Source: Alphaproteobacteria bacterium (lineage in GTDB: Bacteria > Pseudomonadota > Alphaproteobacteria > Reyranellales > Reyranellaceae). From it: a DNA stretch of 64,000 bases. Position numbers and translations under genes: made by a program. Each line of letters opens with the position of its first letter. Position 1 is the stretch's first letter. Shown here piece after piece: positions 36,779-45,130 of the stretch. Location of the stretch: contig VGCH01000004.1 in NCBI GenBank assembly GCA_016870115.1, positions 62,001 to 126,000 on the forward strand, in the 5' to 3' direction. The notes under the pieces are model-generated. The model had not been told where the DNA came from and did no database searches. It worked only from the letters and a program-made list of their open reading frames with translations.

Positions 36779-37846
36779 TCACACGTCGCCGAGACAGATC
36801 CCGAGCCCGCGGGCCGTGTGGACCAGCGTGCCCAACGGGTCGACCGCCCGCGAGCGGCCGACGATCTTGTCGAGCGGCACATCGATCACCTGGCGGTTCC
36901 ACCACGCCACCATGCGGTCGTGCCGGCCCTCGGCCAGCAGATCGACCGCGCGTGTGCCGAGCGCGGCAGCCAGCAGGCGATCCTCGGCGGTCGGCGCCGC
37001 CCCGCGCTGCACATGCCCCAGCACGGTGGCCCGGACCTCAAAGCCGGTCGTCTTCGCGATGAGCGACGCGAGCCACTCGCCCACCCCGCGCGGTGGCGCG
37101 TCGCCGGTCGCGCCGGGCGCGTCGCTCTGGCCCGCGGCCTCGGCCACGACCACCAGCGCCGTCGTCCGACCCGCCGCACGGCCGCGCGCGATGTGGGCGG
37201 CAACCCGGTCGAGTCGCCACGGCACTTCCGGGATCAGCACGACATCGGCGCCGCCCGCGATGCCCGCGGCGATGGCGATATGGCCGGCGTCGCGGCCCAT
37301 CACCTCAAGCACCATGACGCGTTCGTGGCTGAGGCCCGTGGGGTGCAGCCGATCCAACGCCTCGGTCGCGATCGCCACCGCGGTGCCGTAGCCCAGCGCG
37401 CGTTCGGTGCGCGCGACGTCGTTGTCGATGGTCTTGGGGATGCCAACGAACGCAATGCCCGCCGGCACGAACAGCCGCCGCAGGATCGCGAGGCTGCCGT
37501 CGCCGCCGACGCCCACCAGCCCGTCGAGGTCGAGCGAACGCGCGCCGTCCACGATCTCCGCCGAGCGGTCGCGCGTGCTGCCGTCGGGCATGGGAAAGGC
37601 GAAGGGATTGCCGCGATTGGTGCTGCCGAGGAACGTGCCCCCCGCCCGCGCGAGCGCCGCGTCCAGCCGCGCCGGATCGAGCGTGCGCGCGCGCACCGGT
37701 CGATCGAGAAGACCAAGCGTGCCGCGCTCAATCCCGACCGTCGTCCAGCCATGGCCGTGATGCGCGCGCAGAGCGACAGCGCGGATCACCGCGTTGAGGC
37801 CGGCGCAATCGCCGCCACTGGTGAGGATCCCGATCCGCTTGGTCAT
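36779..37846 (-). CDS. pfkA: 6-phosphofructokinase (PfkA family, ATP-type)
   Basis: The 355-residue protein has GILTSGGDCAGLNAVIR at the N-terminus, the phosphate-donor motif GGDGS (114-118), the catalytic PKTIDND (137-143) and the fructose 6-phosphate site VMGRDAGHIA. Gly in GGDGS rather than Asp points to ATP, not pyrophosphate, as donor. It commits fructose 6-phosphate to glycolysis. It converges on prmB with only 6 bases between stops, and diverges from a GNAT gene. Confidence 0.93.
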   Translation of the reverse strand: MTKRIGILTSGGDCAGLNAVIRAVALRAHHGHGWTTVGIERGTLGLLDRPVRARTLDPARLDAALARAGGTFLGSTNRGNPFAFPMPDGSTRDRSAEIVDGARSLDLDGLVGVGGDGSLAILRRLFVPAGIAFVGIPKTIDNDVARTERALGYGTAVAIATEALDRLHPTGLSHERVMVLEVMGRDAGHIAIAAGIAGGADVVLIPEVPWRLDRVAAHIARGRAAGRTTALVVVAEAAGQSDAPGATGDAPPRGVGEWLASLIAKTTGFEVRATVLGHVQRGAAPTAEDRLLAAALGTRAVDLLAEGRHDRMVAWWNRQVIDVPLDKIVGRSRAVDPLGTLVHTARGLGICLGDV

Positions 37847-37873: not shown

Positions 37874-38428
37874 ATGTCCCGAAATCCGAAGCGACAGCCG
37901 ACTTTCACCACCGAGCGTCTCAAGGTGCGGCCCTTTCGGACGAGCGACGTGGGTGTCATGCATGCGCTCTATGGCGATGCCCACAATGTGCGCTTCAGGA
38001 GCATTGCGCCAACGCGCACCCGCGAGGAGTCCCGCCGCCAGTTGCGCGAGCACCTGGGGTATCGTCCCAATCGCTTCGCCGTCTGGGCGATCGAACGGCG
38101 CGACCAGCGCGGCGTGGTTGGCATGATCAACTATCATCGGCGGGAGCTGCGCCAGAAGCGCGTCGACGTCGGCTGGCTCGCCCTGCCGACGGCCCAGGGC
38201 CAGGGCTACATGACCGAGGCCATGCGCGCGCTGTTGCGCCACGTGATTGACGATCTCGGAGTCCACAAGGTCGAAGCCCAGATCATGAAGGCCAACAAGC
38301 CATCGGTGGCGCTCGCCCGGCGCCTGGGATTTCGCCTGGAGGGCGGACCGATCCGCGATCGCTGGCTGATCGACGGCGAATGGCGCAGTACGATGCTCTA
38401 CGGCTTGATCGCCGGAGAGGAGCGCTGA
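37874..38428 (+). CDS. GNAT-family acetyltransferase (RimJ-like)
   Basis: The 184-residue protein begins FTTERLKVRPFRTSDV, typical of RimJ/RimL-type N-acetyltransferases. It carries the acetyl-CoA loop LPTAQGQGYMTEAMRALL near residue 97 and ends with the KPSVALARRLGFRLEG motif. The acceptor may be a protein N-terminus or a small molecule. Its stop and the start of the amidohydrolase gene overlap (TGATG), so the two are cotranslated. Confidence 0.9.
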   Translation: MSRNPKRQPTFTTERLKVRPFRTSDVGVMHALYGDAHNVRFRSIAPTRTREESRRQLREHLGYRPNRFAVWAIERRDQRGVVGMINYHRRELRQKRVDVGWLALPTAQGQGYMTEAMRALLRHVIDDLGVHKVEAQIMKANKPSVALARRLGFRLEGGPIRDRWLIDGEWRSTMLYGLIAGEER

Positions 38429-39600
38429 TGCGTCCGGTCTTCGATCCCTCGAACGTCCATCGCCTGAAGTTCACGGGCGCCGTCGATGCCGACGGGCATC
38501 TTCTGGAAGATGCCGGTCTTTGGGAGCGCTACATCGAGGCGAAGTATCGCGACCGCGCCATGCGGCTCGCGCGCGACGCGGAGGGGCTGGAGTATCTCGA
38601 GATCGACGGCAAGCCGAGCAAGCGCACCCGCAAGGGCTATCCCGCGACGCTGGGCCGGATGGGTCAGACCGAGCTTGAAGCGTTCGTGCCGCATCCCGAC
38701 AAGACCTATGCAGCCAACATGCCCTATGGCGCGTGCGATCCCGACGAACGGCTGAAGCTCCTCGACGCCGAAGGGCTCGACGCGGCCGTGCTCTATCCAA
38801 CGCTCGGCATCCTGTGGGAGAGCGAGCTGGAGGATGTCGAGCTGAGCCAGGCCTATTGCCGCGCCTATAACCGCTGGATCGCGGAGTTCTGCCGCGGCTC
38901 GCGCGGGCGGCTGGTGCCCATCGCTCATTTGTCCCTCGGCGACCCCGAGGCCGCGGCGGCGGAGCTGGCGCGCGCGGTTCGCGATGGCTGCCGCGGCGCC
39001 TTCGTCGTGCCCTTCGTGTGGAACGGCCGCGCGCATGGCGATCCGGCGCACGACGCGGTGTTCCGCCAGGCCGTCGAACTCGACGTGCCGCTGGCGATCC
39101 ATCCGGCGTTCGAACCGTTCAAGCTGCGCTCGGCCCGCTTCACCGATGGCCATCGCCTGCCGCTGCTCGCCTCGGTGACGGCCGCGGACGGGGTGCGCCA
39201 CGCTTTCACGACCTTCTTCGACCACGGCACGTTCGATCGCTTCCCGACGCTGAAGCTCGTGCTACTGGAGTCCGGCGCGGGCTGGATCGGCTACTGGCTG
39301 GACCGACTGGATGGTGTCGCCGAGGCGACCTATATCGGCGCCAAGGCGGGCCTGCGGTCGCGACCCAGCGACACGTTCCGCCGGCAGGTCTATATCTCCG
39401 GCGATCCGGATGAGCGCACGCTGCCCGCGCTGATGAAGCTCTATGGCGCCGATCGCTTCTTCTGGGCCTCGGACTACCCGCATCCCGACCATACCGGCGA
39501 CTATCTGCAGGCGCTGGAAGCCATGGTCGACGGTGTCGCGGCGCCCGATCGCCCCGGACTGCTGGGCGGCAACGTGCGCCGCGCCTTCGGATTGAGCTAG
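38428..39600 (+). CDS. Amidohydrolase family 2 (ACMSD-like TIM-barrel metal enzyme)
   Basis: The 390-residue protein is an amidohydrolase_2 enzyme: DADGHLLED near residue 14 in place of the usual D-x-D/H-x-H entry, AIHPAFEPF near 228 (metal His), FPTLKLVLLESGAGWIGYWL near 270 and FWASDYPHPDH with the catalytic Asp near 345. Relatives decarboxylate or hydrolyse aromatic or cyclic acids with a divalent metal. It overlaps the GNAT gene and is followed 38 bases later by an HpcH aldolase gene, suggesting a small catabolic unit. Confidence 0.9.
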   Translation: MRPVFDPSNVHRLKFTGAVDADGHLLEDAGLWERYIEAKYRDRAMRLARDAEGLEYLEIDGKPSKRTRKGYPATLGRMGQTELEAFVPHPDKTYAANMPYGACDPDERLKLLDAEGLDAAVLYPTLGILWESELEDVELSQAYCRAYNRWIAEFCRGSRGRLVPIAHLSLGDPEAAAAELARAVRDGCRGAFVVPFVWNGRAHGDPAHDAVFRQAVELDVPLAIHPAFEPFKLRSARFTDGHRLPLLASVTAADGVRHAFTTFFDHGTFDRFPTLKLVLLESGAGWIGYWLDRLDGVAEATYIGAKAGLRSRPSDTFRRQVYISGDPDERTLPALMKLYGADRFFWASDYPHPDHTGDYLQALEAMVDGVAAPDRPGLLGGNVRRAFGLS

Positions 39601-39638: not shown

Positions 39639-40406
39639 ATGCGAGCGAACAAGATCAAGCAGATGTGGCGCGACAAGAAGTGCGTCACGCTGGGCTGGCT
39701 CTCGGTGGCCAACAGCTTCACCGCCGAGGTGATGGCGCGGCAGGGCTTCGACGCGCTCTGCGTCGATCTCCAGCACGGGCTCACCGAGATGAACGACGTG
39801 GCGCCGATGCTGCAGGCGATCTCGCAGACCGACACGGTGCCGGTCGTGCGCGTGGCCTGGAACGACCCGCCGGCGATCATGAAGGCGCTCGATCTCGGCG
39901 CCTACGGCGTGATCGTGCCGCTGGTGAACAATGCCCAGGAGGCCGCCAAGGCCGTCGCCGCCTGCCGCTATCCGCCGGTCGGCATGCGCTCCAACGGTCC
40001 GATCCGCGCCGCGCACTATGGCGGTTCCGACTATGTCGCCAAGGCCAACGACGAGATCGTGGTGATGGCGATGATCGAGACCAAGGAAGGCCTCGCCAAC
40101 CTCGACGCGATCTGCGCGACGCCGGGGCTCGACGCCGTCTATATCGGGCCGGCCGATCTCTCCTTCGCGCTCGGCCTGCCGCCGCGCGCCGACAATCCCG
40201 ATCCGCTGCACATGGCGACCTGCGACAAGATCAAGGCGGCGGCCCACAAGGCCGGCATCAAGTGCGTGATGCACTGCGCCTCGGCCGCGTTCGCCGCCGG
40301 CGCGGTCAAGCGCGGCTTCGACATGGTGATGCTGACAGCCGACCTCTCCTGCATGATCGCGGGCGCCAAGGCGCAGCTCGAGGAGCTGAAGGCGAAGTCG
40401 GCCTGA
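39639..40406 (+). CDS. HpcH/HpaI family aldolase (class II), copy 2
   Basis: The 255-residue TIM-barrel protein has VTLGWLSVANSFTAEVMARQ at the N-terminus, FDALCVDLQHGLTEM near residue 37 with catalytic His, VVMAMIETKEGLANLD (metal-binding Glu) near 141 and VYIGPADLSFALGL near 167. It cleaves 2-keto-hydroxy acids to pyruvate plus an aldehyde. It differs clearly in sequence from the copy at 10906-11679. It is the last gene before a strong terminator. Confidence 0.92.
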   Translation: MRANKIKQMWRDKKCVTLGWLSVANSFTAEVMARQGFDALCVDLQHGLTEMNDVAPMLQAISQTDTVPVVRVAWNDPPAIMKALDLGAYGVIVPLVNNAQEAAKAVAACRYPPVGMRSNGPIRAAHYGGSDYVAKANDEIVVMAMIETKEGLANLDAICATPGLDAVYIGPADLSFALGLPPRADNPDPLHMATCDKIKAAAHKAGIKCVMHCASAAFAAGAVKRGFDMVMLTADLSCMIAGAKAQLEELKAKSA

Positions 40407-40427
40407 GGCGCCCCGTCCCCGACAAAC

Positions 40428-40456
40428 GAAAGGCCCCGCGTTGCGGGGCCTTTTTC
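40428..40456 (+). terminator. Rho-independent terminator after the HpcH aldolase gene
   Basis: AGGCCCCGC-GTT-GCGGGGCCT followed by TTTTT, 25 bases after the stop. A closely similar terminator precedes the tRNA-Lys 3' end at 41905. Confidence 0.92.
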
Positions 40457-40467
40457 GCGTCTCGCGG

Positions 40468-40482
40468 GATGGTGGGCGCACC
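40468..40482 (-). repeat. Duplicated 3' end of tRNA-Lys
   Basis: GATGGTGGGCGCACC is identical to 41944-41958, which spans the CCA end and acceptor strand of the tRNA-Lys gene. In both places the block lies 36-37 bases after the start of a GGCCCCGC terminator stem. The rest of the tRNA is absent here. No gene is seen between 40457 and 40611. Confidence 0.65.
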
Positions 40483-40611
40483 TGGCCTTGATGAGCGCGG
40501 AGCCACACCGCTTGCGTCGGCCCAACCTCGCGGCCGAGCAGACCGACACGGGCTTCGTCTCTTGCCTGACGCTCATCTCAAACGCTACGCTGGACGCCCT
40601 AAGCACGACAT

Positions 40612-41022
40612 ATGCCTCTGCAGATTCTCCTGCCAATGTTCGCGCACGTGTTGCTCACGGCGCTGCTGTACGTGTTCTTGACCGTCGCGCGAGCGCCATC
40701 GATTTGGGGGGTCGGCCGCCGCCCGGACGGTTCCAATCCCTTCGCCAAGATCGAGCCGCGCATCAGCGCGAACCTGTCCAACCAGTTCGAGTGGCCACTC
40801 CTGTTCTACGCTGGCTGCATTCTTCTCCACCTCGGGGGCACTATTGGTCCGCTCGCCATCGGCCTGGCGTGGCTGTTCGTTCTCGGTCGCCTGGCACACT
40901 CCGTCGTTCAGATCTGCACCACTAATGTCCGACTCCGCGGCGCGGTGTTCACCGTCAACTTCTTGGCGGTTCTCGGCCTCTGGGGGATCGTTCTCCACCA
41001 AGCCATCGTGCGACTTGGCTAG
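40612..41022 (+). CDS. MAPEG family membrane protein
   Basis: The 136-residue protein has four hydrophobic segments and the MAPEG pattern: ARISANLSNQFE-like sequence (EPRISANLSNQFEWPLLFY, residues 48-66) and LAWLFVLGRLAHSVVQ near 84. MAPEG proteins are small four-helix membrane proteins, some with glutathione-dependent activity. It lies in the segment bounded by the two terminator/tRNA-end copies and is followed 6 bases later by a small coupled gene. Confidence 0.88.
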   Translation: MPLQILLPMFAHVLLTALLYVFLTVARAPSIWGVGRRPDGSNPFAKIEPRISANLSNQFEWPLLFYAGCILLHLGGTIGPLAIGLAWLFVLGRLAHSVVQICTTNVRLRGAVFTVNFLAVLGLWGIVLHQAIVRLG

Positions 41023-41028
41023 TCACTC

Positions 41029-41283
41029 ATGCTGCCCCTCAGCGACCGCATGGCCGACGAGCGCGCGAAGCGCATGGCGCCGAGGGGGACGGCCTCCCCT
41101 CTCCCCGATCTACCGCCACCACTGGCGGCCCCAAGCAGTCTCCGAGCCGTGTTGACGACCGCCACGAGAGTGGTCCGCGAAGAGGTGTGGCGCGAAGCCA
41201 TCCAGCGGTTGGCGTCCGGGCACCCGTTCGCCGCGCCGATCGGCAATGGCGTCGCGGTTTTCCGCTCTAGGTCGCCGGCATGA
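41029..41283 (+). CDS. Small hypothetical protein coupled to a methyltransferase gene
   Basis: An 84-codon frame starting MLPLSDRMADERAKRMAPRG and ending GNGVAVFRSRSPA. I recognise no family. Its stop overlaps the start of the methyltransferase gene (ATGA) and its start is 6 bases after the MAPEG stop, an arrangement that favours a real, translationally coupled gene. A long antisense frame across it is a coding shadow. Composition is similar to its neighbours. Confidence 0.45.
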   Translation: MLPLSDRMADERAKRMAPRGTASPLPDLPPPLAAPSSLRAVLTTATRVVREEVWREAIQRLASGHPFAAPIGNGVAVFRSRSPA

Positions 41284-41900
41284 CGATCCGGGTGAGCGGC
41301 ACCGAGGGCTATGGCGAGACCGCCGACGAGCGAGTCGAGCAGTATGAGAGCCTGGCCTTTGCCGACGTCCATCGCGACATGCTGCATCTCTTCCCGACGC
41401 AACCGAGCCGCGTCATCGACATCGGCGCAGGCACCGGCCGCGATGCGGCGGGCTTCGCCGAATTCGGCCACAGGGTGACGGCGGTCGAACCGACACCGGA
41501 GTTGCTGGCCCACGCCCGCCGGCTGCATCGCGAGCCATCCATCACCTGGATCGAGGACTCGTTGCCGGAGCTCGACCGCGTCCACGCGTTGGGCGAGCGC
41601 TATGACGTCGTCATGCTGACCGCGGTCTGGATGCATCTCGACCGCGCGCAGCGCGAGCGCGCCATGGCGCGCGTTGCCCCTTTGCTGCGCTCGAGCGGCC
41701 TGATGGCGCTATCGCTGCGCCACGGGCCGGTGCCGCGCGGCCGTCGCATGTTCGAGGTGACGTCCACCGAGACCCGCGCGCTCGCTGAGCGACACGGGCT
41801 CGTGACGATCCACGACACAGAGCGGCCCGCGCTCTTGGGTGGTCCCTCTGTCTGGTGGAGCCGGCTCGCCTTTCGGGCGCCCGACGGCATCAGGTCCTGA
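41280..41900 (+). CDS. SAM-dependent class I methyltransferase
   Basis: The 206-residue protein has motif I VIDIGAGTGRDAAGFAEFGH (residues 45-64), motif II VTAVEPTPELLAHA and the post-I region YDVVMLTAVWMHLD near 104. It lacks a recognisable substrate domain. It is the last gene of the MAPEG-small protein-methyltransferase group and is followed by a terminator. Other small methyltransferases of this kind act on diverse acceptors. Confidence 0.9.
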   Translation: MTIRVSGTEGYGETADERVEQYESLAFADVHRDMLHLFPTQPSRVIDIGAGTGRDAAGFAEFGHRVTAVEPTPELLAHARRLHREPSITWIEDSLPELDRVHALGERYDVVMLTAVWMHLDRAQRERAMARVAPLLRSSGLMALSLRHGPVPRGRRMFEVTSTETRALAERHGLVTIHDTERPALLGGPSVWWSRLAFRAPDGIRS

Positions 41901-41904
41901 CGAC

Positions 41905-41934
41905 AAAAGGCCCCGCAAATGCGGGGCCTCTTTG
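41905..41934. terminator. Bidirectional terminator between methyltransferase gene and tRNA-Lys
   Basis: AAAGGCCCCGC-AAAT-GCGGGGCCTCTTT has T-rich flanks on both strands, so it can end the plus-strand methyltransferase transcript and the minus-strand tRNA transcript. Confidence 0.85.
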
Positions 41935-41945
41935 CTCTCCGACGA

Positions 41946-42021
<76 letters not shown>

Positions 42022-42095: not shown

Positions 42096-43232
42096 CTATC
42101 CGGCCCTTGGCAGAGCGGCGTCGCGGTAGACATTGACCCCGATCAGAAGCCCGCAGGCGAACATCACCGACAGCATGGCGGTGCCGCCATTGCTGACCAG
42201 CGGCAGCGGCACCCCGACCACGGGGAGCAGCCCCATCACCATCGCCACGTTGATGAAGACGTAGAGGAACAGCATCGCCGTCACGCCCATCGCGACCAGT
42301 CGGCCGAAATGGTGGCGGCTGCGCAGCGCCACCGAATGGCCGATCAGGATCGCCGCGCCGAACAGCGCCAGCACCACGGCGGCACCGGCGAGACCCCACT
42401 CCTCGACGAAACTCGTGAAGATGAAATCGGTCTGCTTCTCGGGCAGGAAGTTCAGCGAGCTCTGGGTGCCGTGAAGGAAGCCTTTGCCGAACAGACCGCC
42501 CGAGCCGATCGCTATCTTGGACTGGGTGATGTGATAGCCCGCGCCCAGCGGGTCGCGCTCCGGATCGAGGAACGTGAGCACACGCCTGCGCTGGTACTCG
42601 TGCATCAGCGTCCAGGCGACCGGCATCGAGGCGACCGCGGCGAGGCCGGCGGCAGCGAAGGCCCAAAGCCGCGTGCCGGCCACGAACATCACGCAGCCGC
42701 CGCCCATCAGCACCATCAGTGCTGTGCCGAGGTCGGGCTGGACCATCACCAGCGCCACCGGCGCGAGGATGAGCGCGGCGGCCGGCACGGTGTGCAGGAG
42801 CTTGCCCGACTGCTCGGGCTTCAGCCCGTGATAGTAGCGCGCGAGAACGAGGATCACCGCGACCTTGGCGATTTCCGACGGCTGGATCTGCACCGGACCC
42901 AGCACCAGCCAGCGTTGGGCGCCCATGCCGATCTTGCCGACGAGATCGACCGCCACCAGCAGCGCCAGCGACACGAGATAGATCGGCCAGGCCAGCGACA
43001 GCCAAACCTTGGGATGAACGAGCGCGACACCCAGCATCAGCGTCAGCGCGCCGGCATAGCGCAGCGCATGCTTGGCGGCCCACGGCTCGGGCCGGCCGCC
43101 GGCCGCCGAGTAGAGCGCCAGGAAACCCACCGCGGCGATGGCGGTAAGGATGAGCACAAGCGCCCAATTGATGCGCCAGATGCGCTCGGCGAAGGAGATC
43201 TGCGGAGCCTCGCCCGCGGCAAGCATGCTCAT
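42096..43232 (-). CDS. rodA: Rod shape-determining protein RodA (SEDS glycosyltransferase)
   Basis: The 378-residue membrane protein has about ten hydrophobic segments and SEDS landmarks: GAQRWLVLGPVQIQPSEIAK near residue 104, VQPDLGTALM near 166 and FIFTSFVEEWGLAGA near 270. RodA polymerises lipid II into glycan strands, working with PBP2. The ATG at 43232 overlaps the mrdA stop by 4 bases. It is the last gene of mreB-mreC-mreD-mrdA-rodA. Confidence 0.97.
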   Translation of the reverse strand: MSMLAAGEAPQISFAERIWRINWALVLILTAIAAVGFLALYSAAGGRPEPWAAKHALRYAGALTLMLGVALVHPKVWLSLAWPIYLVSLALLVAVDLVGKIGMGAQRWLVLGPVQIQPSEIAKVAVILVLARYYHGLKPEQSGKLLHTVPAAALILAPVALVMVQPDLGTALMVLMGGGCVMFVAGTRLWAFAAAGLAAVASMPVAWTLMHEYQRRRVLTFLDPERDPLGAGYHITQSKIAIGSGGLFGKGFLHGTQSSLNFLPEKQTDFIFTSFVEEWGLAGAAVVLALFGAAILIGHSVALRSRHHFGRLVAMGVTAMLFLYVFINVAMVMGLLPVVGVPLPLVSNGGTAMLSVMFACGLLIGVNVYRDAALPRAG

Positions 43233-45130
43233 CGCTGGGCCATCTTGCGGAACCGGTCGGTGCGGCGCGAGGGATCGCGCTTCATCGTCTCGACCAGGAT
43301 GTCGCGGCCGATCGGTGCGGCGGTCGCGCTGCCGCCCATGCCGTGTTCGACGATCACGCTCACGGCATAGCGCGGATTGTCGACCGGGCCATAACAGACG
43401 AACAACGCGTGGTGGCGCAGATGCCACGGCAATTGCTGCTGGGTGATACCGAGATCGCGCTCGCGCTCGGTGATGCGCTTCACCTGCGCGGTGCCCGTCT
43501 TGCCCGCGAACGCCAGCGCCGGATCGCGCTGGCGCAATTGGTTGGCGGTGCCATGGCCAGAGTTCACCACCTGGTTCATGCCCTCGCGGATCAGCGCCAG
43601 ATGCTGTGGGTTGAGCCGCATCGAGGGCGCCGTCGGCTTGTCACGCACCGTCGTGGGTGGCGCCAGTTCCTCGCGCGGCGTCGCCCGGGCGAGCAGCAGG
43701 TTCGGCTGCACCTCGTAGCCGCCATTGGCCAGCCGCGCCGTCATGATGGCGAGCTGCAGCGGCGTGGAGGTCATGTATCCTTGGCCGATGCCCAGGTTGA
43801 AGGTGTCGCCGTGCTGCCAGGGCTTGCCGTGCTTTTCCTGCTTCCACGCGCGGCTCGGCTGGTTGCCCGCGACCTCGCCGGGCATGCCGAGCTCGGAGAG
43901 CTTGCCGAAGCCCAGCCGCGAGGCCATCTCGCCGATGCGATCGACGCCAGTGCGGCGGGCCGCCTCGTAGAAGAAGCAGTCGCAGGACGCCGCCAGTGCC
44001 TCGACGACGTTGAGGCCGCCGTGCCCGCCCTTCAGCCAGCAATGGAACTTGAGCCCGCCCAGCTCGAGGAAGCCGAGGCACGGCAGTCGGGTCCAGGCGT
44101 CGATCGCGCGGCTCTCCAGTGCCGCCAGCGCCGTCACCATCTTGTAGGTGGAGCCCGGCGGATAGGCGCCCGCGATCGCCTTGTTGTGCAGGGGCCGCTC
44201 GACGCTGTCGAGCAGCTCCTTCCATTCGCTCTGCGTGATCCCGCGGGCGAAGACGTTGGGGTCGAACCCCGGCACCGACACCAGCGCGAGCAGATCGCCG
44301 GTGATCACGTCCATCACCACCGCGGACCCGCTCTGGTGCGCCTTCATTTTCTCGGTCGCGAAGCGCTGGAGATCGAGATCGATGGTCAGCAGCGCATTCG
44401 AGCCCGGCTGGCCTTCGGTGCGGTCGAGCTCCCGCACGACGCGGCCGACGGCATTGACCTCGACCTGCACCGCGCCCGCCCGACCGCGCAGATCCTCCTC
44501 AAGCTGGCGCTCCATGCCCTTGCGACCGACCCGCATCAGGTCGAGCCGCAGCAGCGCGTCGTCGGCGCCACCCAGGTCTTCCTTGTCGACCCGGCTGGTG
44601 TAGCCGAGGATGTGGCTCATCAAGTCGCCCTCTGGATAGTCACGCGACTGGCCCAAGTCGATGAAGACGCCGGGGAGGTCCGGCGCGTTGAACTCCAGCC
44701 GCGCCACTTCCTCCCAGCCGAGATTCTCGCGCACCACGACGGGCTGGGCGTTGCGCGCCCGGCGCAGTTCGCGCAACAGCCGCGCGCGATCCTGCTCACC
44801 CAGCGAAAGGATCTGGTCCAGTCGGTCGACCACGAGATCGGCGCCCCGCCCGCGGTCCGACGTCGCCATCACCCGGAAATTGTTGCGGTTGATCGCGAGC
44901 GGCTCGCCGTTGCGGTCGAAGATCAGACCGCGCGAGGGCGCCAGCAGCCGGAGATTGATCCGGTTCTCTTCGGCAAGCGTGGTGAAGCGTTGCGACTCCA
45001 GCACCTGTAGCTGATAGAGCCGGGCACCGAGTGCGCCGAACAGGCCGAGCTGCAGACCGCCCAGCAACAGGGCGCGCCGCGTGAATAGCGCGCTGCGCTC
45101 AGAGTCGCCTCGGCGCAACCTCTGGCTCAC
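43229..45130 (-). CDS. mrdA: Penicillin-binding protein 2 (MrdA)
   Basis: The 633-residue transpeptidase has an N-terminal membrane helix (ALLLGGLQLGLFGALGARLY) and a dimerisation/pedestal domain. The catalytic domain has SxxK as PPGSTYKM, the SxN-equivalent SCD in AASCDCFFYEA, and KTG in FAGKTGTAQV. It cross-links peptidoglycan during elongation with RodA. The start is a GTG at 45130 that overlaps the mreD stop (GTGA); the open frame further upstream lies within mreD and is a shadow. Confidence 0.96.
   Translation of the reverse strand: MSQRLRRGDSERSALFTRRALLLGGLQLGLFGALGARLYQLQVLESQRFTTLAEENRINLRLLAPSRGLIFDRNGEPLAINRNNFRVMATSDRGRGADLVVDRLDQILSLGEQDRARLLRELRRARNAQPVVVRENLGWEEVARLEFNAPDLPGVFIDLGQSRDYPEGDLMSHILGYTSRVDKEDLGGADDALLRLDLMRVGRKGMERQLEEDLRGRAGAVQVEVNAVGRVVRELDRTEGQPGSNALLTIDLDLQRFATEKMKAHQSGSAVVMDVITGDLLALVSVPGFDPNVFARGITQSEWKELLDSVERPLHNKAIAGAYPPGSTYKMVTALAALESRAIDAWTRLPCLGFLELGGLKFHCWLKGGHGGLNVVEALAASCDCFFYEAARRTGVDRIGEMASRLGFGKLSELGMPGEVAGNQPSRAWKQEKHGKPWQHGDTFNLGIGQGYMTSTPLQLAIMTARLANGGYEVQPNLLLARATPREELAPPTTVRDKPTAPSMRLNPQHLALIREGMNQVVNSGHGTANQLRQRDPALAFAGKTGTAQVKRITERERDLGITQQQLPWHLRHHALFVCYGPVDNPRYAVSVIVEHGMGGSATAAPIGRDILVETMKRDPSRRTDRFRKMAQR

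Follow-up and report, generated by a model that had tools for sequence, protein, structure and literature searches.

Why should the 3' end of a tRNA-Lys gene, together with the hairpin terminator that follows it, stand twice in the same orientation in a bacterial genome, with a handful of genes in between? The question is raised by the window analyzed here, a stretch of 64,000 nucleotides (G000:C4:62001-126000) from a genome of 3.56 Mb in 59 contigs, the sole member of its genus among the 75 genomes of its family. The two copies are 1.45 kb apart and enclose two or three genes, depending on whether a weak 84-aa open reading frame is counted. According to our analysis, the block is probably an eroded remnant, devoid of an integrase, of an integrative element that had used a recurrent tRNA-Lys site. 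The features to which we refer are as follows.

36779..37846, minus strand: 6-phosphofructokinase-like gene (a name that we presume from the sequence), far anchor of the variable interval
38380..39600, plus strand: amidohydrolase (PF04909), outside the left copy
39639..40406, plus strand: HpcH/HpaI aldolase (PF03328), outside the left copy and found at another location in relatives
40431..40454, no strand assigned: second copy of the hairpin terminator (hairpin search), joined to the displaced tRNA tail
40468..40491, minus strand: displaced, eroded 3' end of tRNA-Lys, 15 nt exact and approximately 22 to 24 nt recognizable; putative other attachment site
40612..41022, plus strand: MAPEG-family membrane protein, 136 aa (PF01124, E value 4e-18)
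41029..41283, plus strand: open frame of 84 aa, doubtful gene, no Pfam family matched
41280..41900, plus strand: SAM-dependent methyltransferase, 206 aa (PF13649, E value 5.5e-14; PF08241)
41905..41929, no strand assigned: hairpin terminator, downstream of both the tRNA (minus strand) and the methyltransferase (plus strand)
41946..42021, minus strand: tRNA-Lys(CTT), intact, with its 3' CCA encoded (ARAGORN); putative regenerated side of the attachment site
42096..43427, minus strand: rodA/ftsW-type gene (PF01098), fixed anchor on the tRNA side

Two copies of the tRNA-Lys tail and its terminator

The original prediction described a terminator and an identical 15-mer occurring twice with the same spacing, and both statements were borne out. 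The 15-mer GATGGTGGGCGCACC, of which 13 of 15 bases belong to the 3' end of tRNA-Lys(CTT), the only tRNA that ARAGORN called in the window, is found exactly at 40468-40482 and 41944-41958 and, with up to one mismatch allowed, has no further occurrence in the 3.56 Mb of the genome. The hairpin GGCCCCGC(N)GCGGGGCC lies at 40432-40450 and 41909-41928, the sole two occurrences in the window, where 0.01 would be expected, while the motif AAGGCCCCGC..GCGGGGCCT has four sites genome-wide, two of which are the repeat copies. The distance from the hairpin to the 15-mer is 36 nt in the left copy and 35 nt in the right one, and the spacing is therefore equal to within one base. In full, the copy extends beyond the limits initially given to it, 40426-40491 aligning with 41903-41967 over 66 nt in the same orientation, with 79% identity over 67 columns. 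This alignment scores 48.2 bits (E value 1e-8 in the window), compared with a maximum of 31.9 bits for 1242 control tiles of the window against the same target. The repeat is thus confirmed by the genome-wide counts and by its score against the controls. GC-rich hairpins are common in genomes of this sort, and a chance likeness of two of them, each next to a short tRNA-like word, had to be considered; the same counts and control tiles refute it, and it deserves practically no credence.

The left terminator was also evaluated as a terminator of the aldolase gene that precedes it. This was rejected, since no such hairpin stands behind the aldolase gene in any of the eight relatives examined, which implies that the tRNA tail and the terminator are one duplicated unit. 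A promoter scan found none.

Genes between the copies

A MAPEG gene, a small unknown gene, and a methyltransferase gene had been read between the copies; Pfam confirms the first and the third, and the 84-aa frame matches no family. MAPEG matches occur in 3 of the 75 family genomes, one being the window's own, and the other two are just 34 to 36% identical. When compared with the genome_contigs collection, 131 relatives of the MAPEG protein were confirmed, the best 80 of which have 53 to 73% identity. Among the matches listed, from which records close to the window's own genome may be absent, gammaproteobacteria reach 60 to 73% identity, with Lysobacter and Pseudoxanthomonas in the lead, and those with informative names are organisms that we take to be gamma- or betaproteobacteria. 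Judging from these sequence comparisons, the MAPEG gene is foreign to the family, where it has no close relative. The proposal to look for the block at other tRNA genes gave no support: at the best 80 of the 131 MAPEG loci, a tRNA is present in the retrieved stretch at 2 and a tRNA-Lys tail at none.

The methyltransferase is instead a gene of the family, kept by relatives at other loci (28 loci, 56 to 87% protein identity). We dropped it as a tRNA-linked gene, given that these 28 loci and 10 wider stretches contain no tRNA, no tRNA-Lys fragment, and no similar integrase; furthermore, no other gene is common to all of its neighborhoods. Neither the whole block (GC of 0.672 versus 0.682) nor the methyltransferase gene (GC3 of 0.865) is compositionally odd, which counts against a foreign element, while the MAPEG gene alone is slightly low in GC (0.625).

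The absence of a visible integrase, originally remarked on for this locus, was corroborated. No PF00589 integrase lies in or near the block; all five matches of the genome are away from it, with none within 90 kb on the block's contig, and a Pfam scan of the three cargo frames revealed no recombination or conjugation family. The integrases of this genome are just 23 to 31% similar to those at the tRNA-Lys sites of two relatives described below (G019 and G098), and the integrase of a third (G031) matched none of them. This dissimilarity, along with the fact that the block encodes neither an integrase nor another mobility function, argues against reading the block as the remnant of an element. 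Three other integrase genes of the genome (L239 on C19, L240 on C46, and L241 on C5) adjoin tRNA genes, called by ARAGORN as tRNA-SeC, tRNA-Thr, and tRNA-Cys/Asn, respectively.

Displaced tRNA-Lys fragments in the family

The 75 family genomes were scanned, and the stretches containing the locus were then compared by blastn. The rodA gene, tRNA-Lys, and the terminator form a conserved unit in relatives, and many DNA matches start at 41900-41905. The 6-phosphofructokinase-like gene stands to the same side of tRNA-Lys in many loci of the family and is often preceded by a DinB-like gene, a phosphoesterase gene, or an amidohydrolase gene, the first two of these names being presumptive; the amidohydrolase gene is near it in G020 and G081 too. 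The interval between the tRNA and this far anchor is variable: of the 55 oriented loci, 33 have both on one stretch, and the shortest and longest intervals among them are 54 bp (G024) and 12.9 kb (G020). It measures 4.1 kb in the window and approximately 30.8 kb in G031, the latter value being derived from two stretches of one contig.

A second tRNA-Lys fragment, consisting of the 3' part only, was detected in 10 of 74 relatives (G019, G031, G032, G064, G077, G078, G079, G081, G082, and G098), a lower bound since contig ends may conceal further cases. In six of them the fragment and the full gene share a contig, with gaps between the two 3' ends of 69 bp (G079), 0.85 kb (G078), 0.99 kb (G064), 1.03 kb (G077), 6.4 kb (G082), and 26.8 kb (G031); in the other four (G019, G032, G081, and G098) they are on different contigs. 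In 8 carriers the fragment is followed by conserved far-side genes, the exceptions being G078, whose contig ends first, and G081, whose fragment sits elsewhere and has no terminator. Cargo and interval size vary among the carriers. G070 and G093 were discarded as carriers, a contig end cutting the tRNA in both, and the count leaves out a weak match in G093 (71%, E value 0.01) and a G061 match (E value 0.003) that spans hardly more than the terminator.

Most of the relatives' fragments are identical to the gene from the anticodon loop or near it, the position of subsite A in the Islander scheme (PMC4383910). Shorter remnants are found in G078, G064, and G082, and the window keeps just the T-arm and the acceptor end, a short tail that may reflect either erosion or use of a T-loop/J subsite. 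Since these approximately 22 to 24 nt lack the anticodon-loop part, the crossover point is unreadable in the left copy, which weighs against reading the block as an element.

The original prediction had also considered the stump of a deleted second tRNA-Lys. Such a stump would go back to two tRNA-Lys genes in tandem, each with a terminator; genes would have entered between them, and a deletion would have left only the tail of the outer one. The left copy, in which the order of terminator and tail is kept, would fit such an origin, as would G079, where just 26 nt separate the full tRNA from the start of the fragment downstream. However, none of the loci examined has two complete tRNA-Lys genes, and the fragments of relatives are always 3' ends, most of which begin at the anticodon loop instead of at arbitrary points, and integrases stand next to or near three of them. 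We therefore deem a tandem pair quite unlikely.

A rodA tree built from 62 genomes requires 10 changes to account for its 11 fragment carriers, and well-supported branches force at least 9 of these; the branch leading to the window's genome is a long one. The segments of G000 (the window's genome), G064, G077, G078, G082, G031, and G019 have no common DNA beyond the tail and the terminator, apart from one paralogous stretch and one contig-end overlap within the G019 segments themselves. A shared ancestry of the short intervals was consequently rejected, the tail and the terminator being all that they have in common.

Empty and filled sites

Two genomes close to each other on the rodA tree, G027 and G077, provide an exact pair of an empty and a filled site. 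The anchor gene lies 2286 bp from the tRNA 3' end of G027 and likewise 2286 bp from the displaced copy of G077, over stretches that are 87% alike, and G077 exceeds G027 by exactly 1032 bp, located between its two tRNA 3' ends. The outer terminator of G077 matches that of G027, while its tRNA-side terminator is more divergent. A comparison of G064 with G068 and G074 gives the same pattern of terminator and flank in a less clean form, with differing anchor distances.

The gene in the G077 interval (L072:2017-2613), channel-like by eye and without a family call, has its place in 35 relatives either on a different contig or at a distance of more than 100 kb. In G036 (L078) and G097 (L088), which form a close group with G077, it stands at the same tRNA with no displaced copy, accompanied by flanking DNA from its usual locus. 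Taken together, these observations indicate that a rearrangement in several steps can also build intervals here, and G077 was accordingly lowered as a case of a clean, mobile one-gene cassette, its cargo having a multistep history. The old locus of the channel-like gene in G008 and G014 is approximately 5 to 6 kb from the aldolase gene that adjoins tRNA-Lys in the window.

The exactness of the G077 insertion relative to G027 would suit a minimal element of approximately 1 to 1.5 kb, lacking an integrase, inserted as such, and moved in trans by the integrase of an island that uses the same tRNA, as would the intervals of 0.8 to 1.5 kb with one to three genes in G000, G064, G077, and G078. Yet these four short intervals have nothing in common beyond the tRNA tail and the terminator, the history of the G077 cargo speaks against a single step, and mobilization in trans is itself hypothetical; we regard such an origin of the block as unlikely. 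Its extension to a family-wide class of integrase-less elements of approximately 1 to 1.5 kb, each with its own tRNA-Lys tail and terminator, inserted in trans and shuttling individual genes, chromosomal or foreign, to a single tRNA, is improbable in our judgment. G064 carries another copy of the 148-aa frame of its interval, broken and on a different contig, and G082 has an 82% relative of this frame (L292, L293, and L294).

Repair at a chromosomal break could also have duplicated the tRNA tail and the terminator around a captured segment, with no integrase involved. The relocation of the channel-like gene in G077, G036, and G097 and that of the aldolase gene in the window show that rearrangement is common at this site. 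A fresh duplication, however, should yield two like terminators, unlike the pair in G077, and the boundary at the anticodon loop recurs. Break repair is for these reasons very improbable.

Integrase-bearing islands and viral contigs at the same tRNA

In three relatives an integrase accompanies the displaced fragment. A PF00589 integrase gene lies 90 bp from the fragment in G019 and 148 bp from it in G098, whereas in G031, whose element measures 26.8 kb, it is 1.4 kb from the tRNA. The G019 and G098 integrases are 72% identical, and that of G031 is of a different type (28%). As in the window, these islands occupy the same tRNA gene and have displaced a tRNA tail with its terminator, and the far side has the same anchor gene in G031 and G019 and the DinB-like gene in G098; unlike the block, they are larger and contain an integrase and defense-like cargo. 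The latter includes McrBC and DUF3644 in the G031 island (L073/L074), which also contains a resolvase, a SMODS-like nucleotidyltransferase in the G019 stretch (L102), and an SMC/phosphoesterase pair in the G098 stretch (L121).

Seven IMG/VR stretches contain the 43-nt tail without a mismatch, and in five of them the 5' half of the gene is missing. Of these five, four (L296, L297, L300, and L302) encode, at most 1.2 kb away, a frame resembling the G031 integrase with 26 to 29% identity. Such tails look like what would be expected of phage or prophage attachment sites.

Origin of the block and comparison with known systems

We propose that an integrative element entered the 3' part of tRNA-Lys(CTT), where a tyrosine integrase would have recombined the tail carried by the element with the chromosomal one. 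The tRNA gene would thereby have been restored with the tail and terminator of the element, now the right copy, while the original ones would have been displaced to the far side as the left copy. The integrase and most of the cargo would then have been lost, the left copy would have eroded since nothing selects for it, and the foreign MAPEG gene and the methyltransferase gene would have remained. This account is favored because the copy is well above chance and in the orientation expected of integration, because the terminator belongs to the tRNA tail and not to the aldolase gene, because the MAPEG gene is foreign, because fragments limited to the 3' end recur among relatives with a variable interval and about 10 changes on the tree, and because integrases at three of the sites, the G027/G077 pair, and the viral tails point the same way. 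The tiny integrated or remnant element first suggested for this locus is thus supported by the fragments in relatives, the three nearby integrases, and the exact pair. That an integrase acted in the window's own lineage is presumed; the right-hand tail is likewise presumably the incoming one, and the block would descend from a larger element that shrank rather than from a small one that moved in trans.

The mechanism is ordinary, and the block is a small further example of a well-known type of insertion scar at a tRNA site. It accounts for an odd repeat and places it at one tRNA-Lys gene that has been a repeated point of entry in the family, with intervals of 54 bp to approximately 30 kb framed by constant neighboring genes. 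In the Islander approach, an island in a tRNA gene is recognized by an intact tRNA gene, a displaced 3' fragment, an integrase, and a length of 2 to 200 kb (PMC4383910). The block resembles such islands in having an intact tRNA, a 3' fragment downstream in the same orientation, and a foreign gene between them, but it has no integrase, is only 1.45 kb long, and has an eroded fragment. Owing to the missing integrase and the length, it would be removed by two of the Islander filters while showing the tRNA and fragment signature. Finders that require an integrase and 2 kb, such as Islander, miss stubs of this kind, which mark entry points of foreign genes such as the MAPEG gene.

The size of the block is within that of the classical cis-mobilizable elements (CIMEs) of streptococci, which span 1.2 to 13 kb and are reported in large numbers at the 3' end of tRNA-Lys CTT, the same isoacceptor as here, in Streptococcus agalactiae (PMC7563491). 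CIMEs are bracketed by att sites and carry cargo only, without recombination or conjugation genes; by definition they arise from an ICE or IME through deletion and are mobilized in cis when another element comes in (PMC7563491). The block differs in that no ICE or IME adjoins it in tandem and in that one of its putative att copies is worn. Its right site is intact and its left site is reduced to approximately 22 to 24 nt of tRNA plus the terminator, and none of its three frames belongs to a recombination or conjugation family in Pfam. The block therefore looks CIME-like in sequence features; we do not claim membership.

Variation of the tRNA-Lys site

Paired changes in the acceptor and T stems of tRNA-Lys(CTT) were observed among relatives (L086, L094-L100, and L116-L118), giving GGGCGAT, GGGCGCT, and GGGCGCA types. 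In G079, the fragment is of the common tRNA-Lys type and the full gene is of another. Many relatives (L065, L066, L085, L093, L101, and L118) have no hairpin after tRNA-Lys, and such loci show a CACTTAG-like motif approximately 10 to 20 nt past the CCA, which may be an attachment flank borne by elements. The motif is also present on the viral contig L301.
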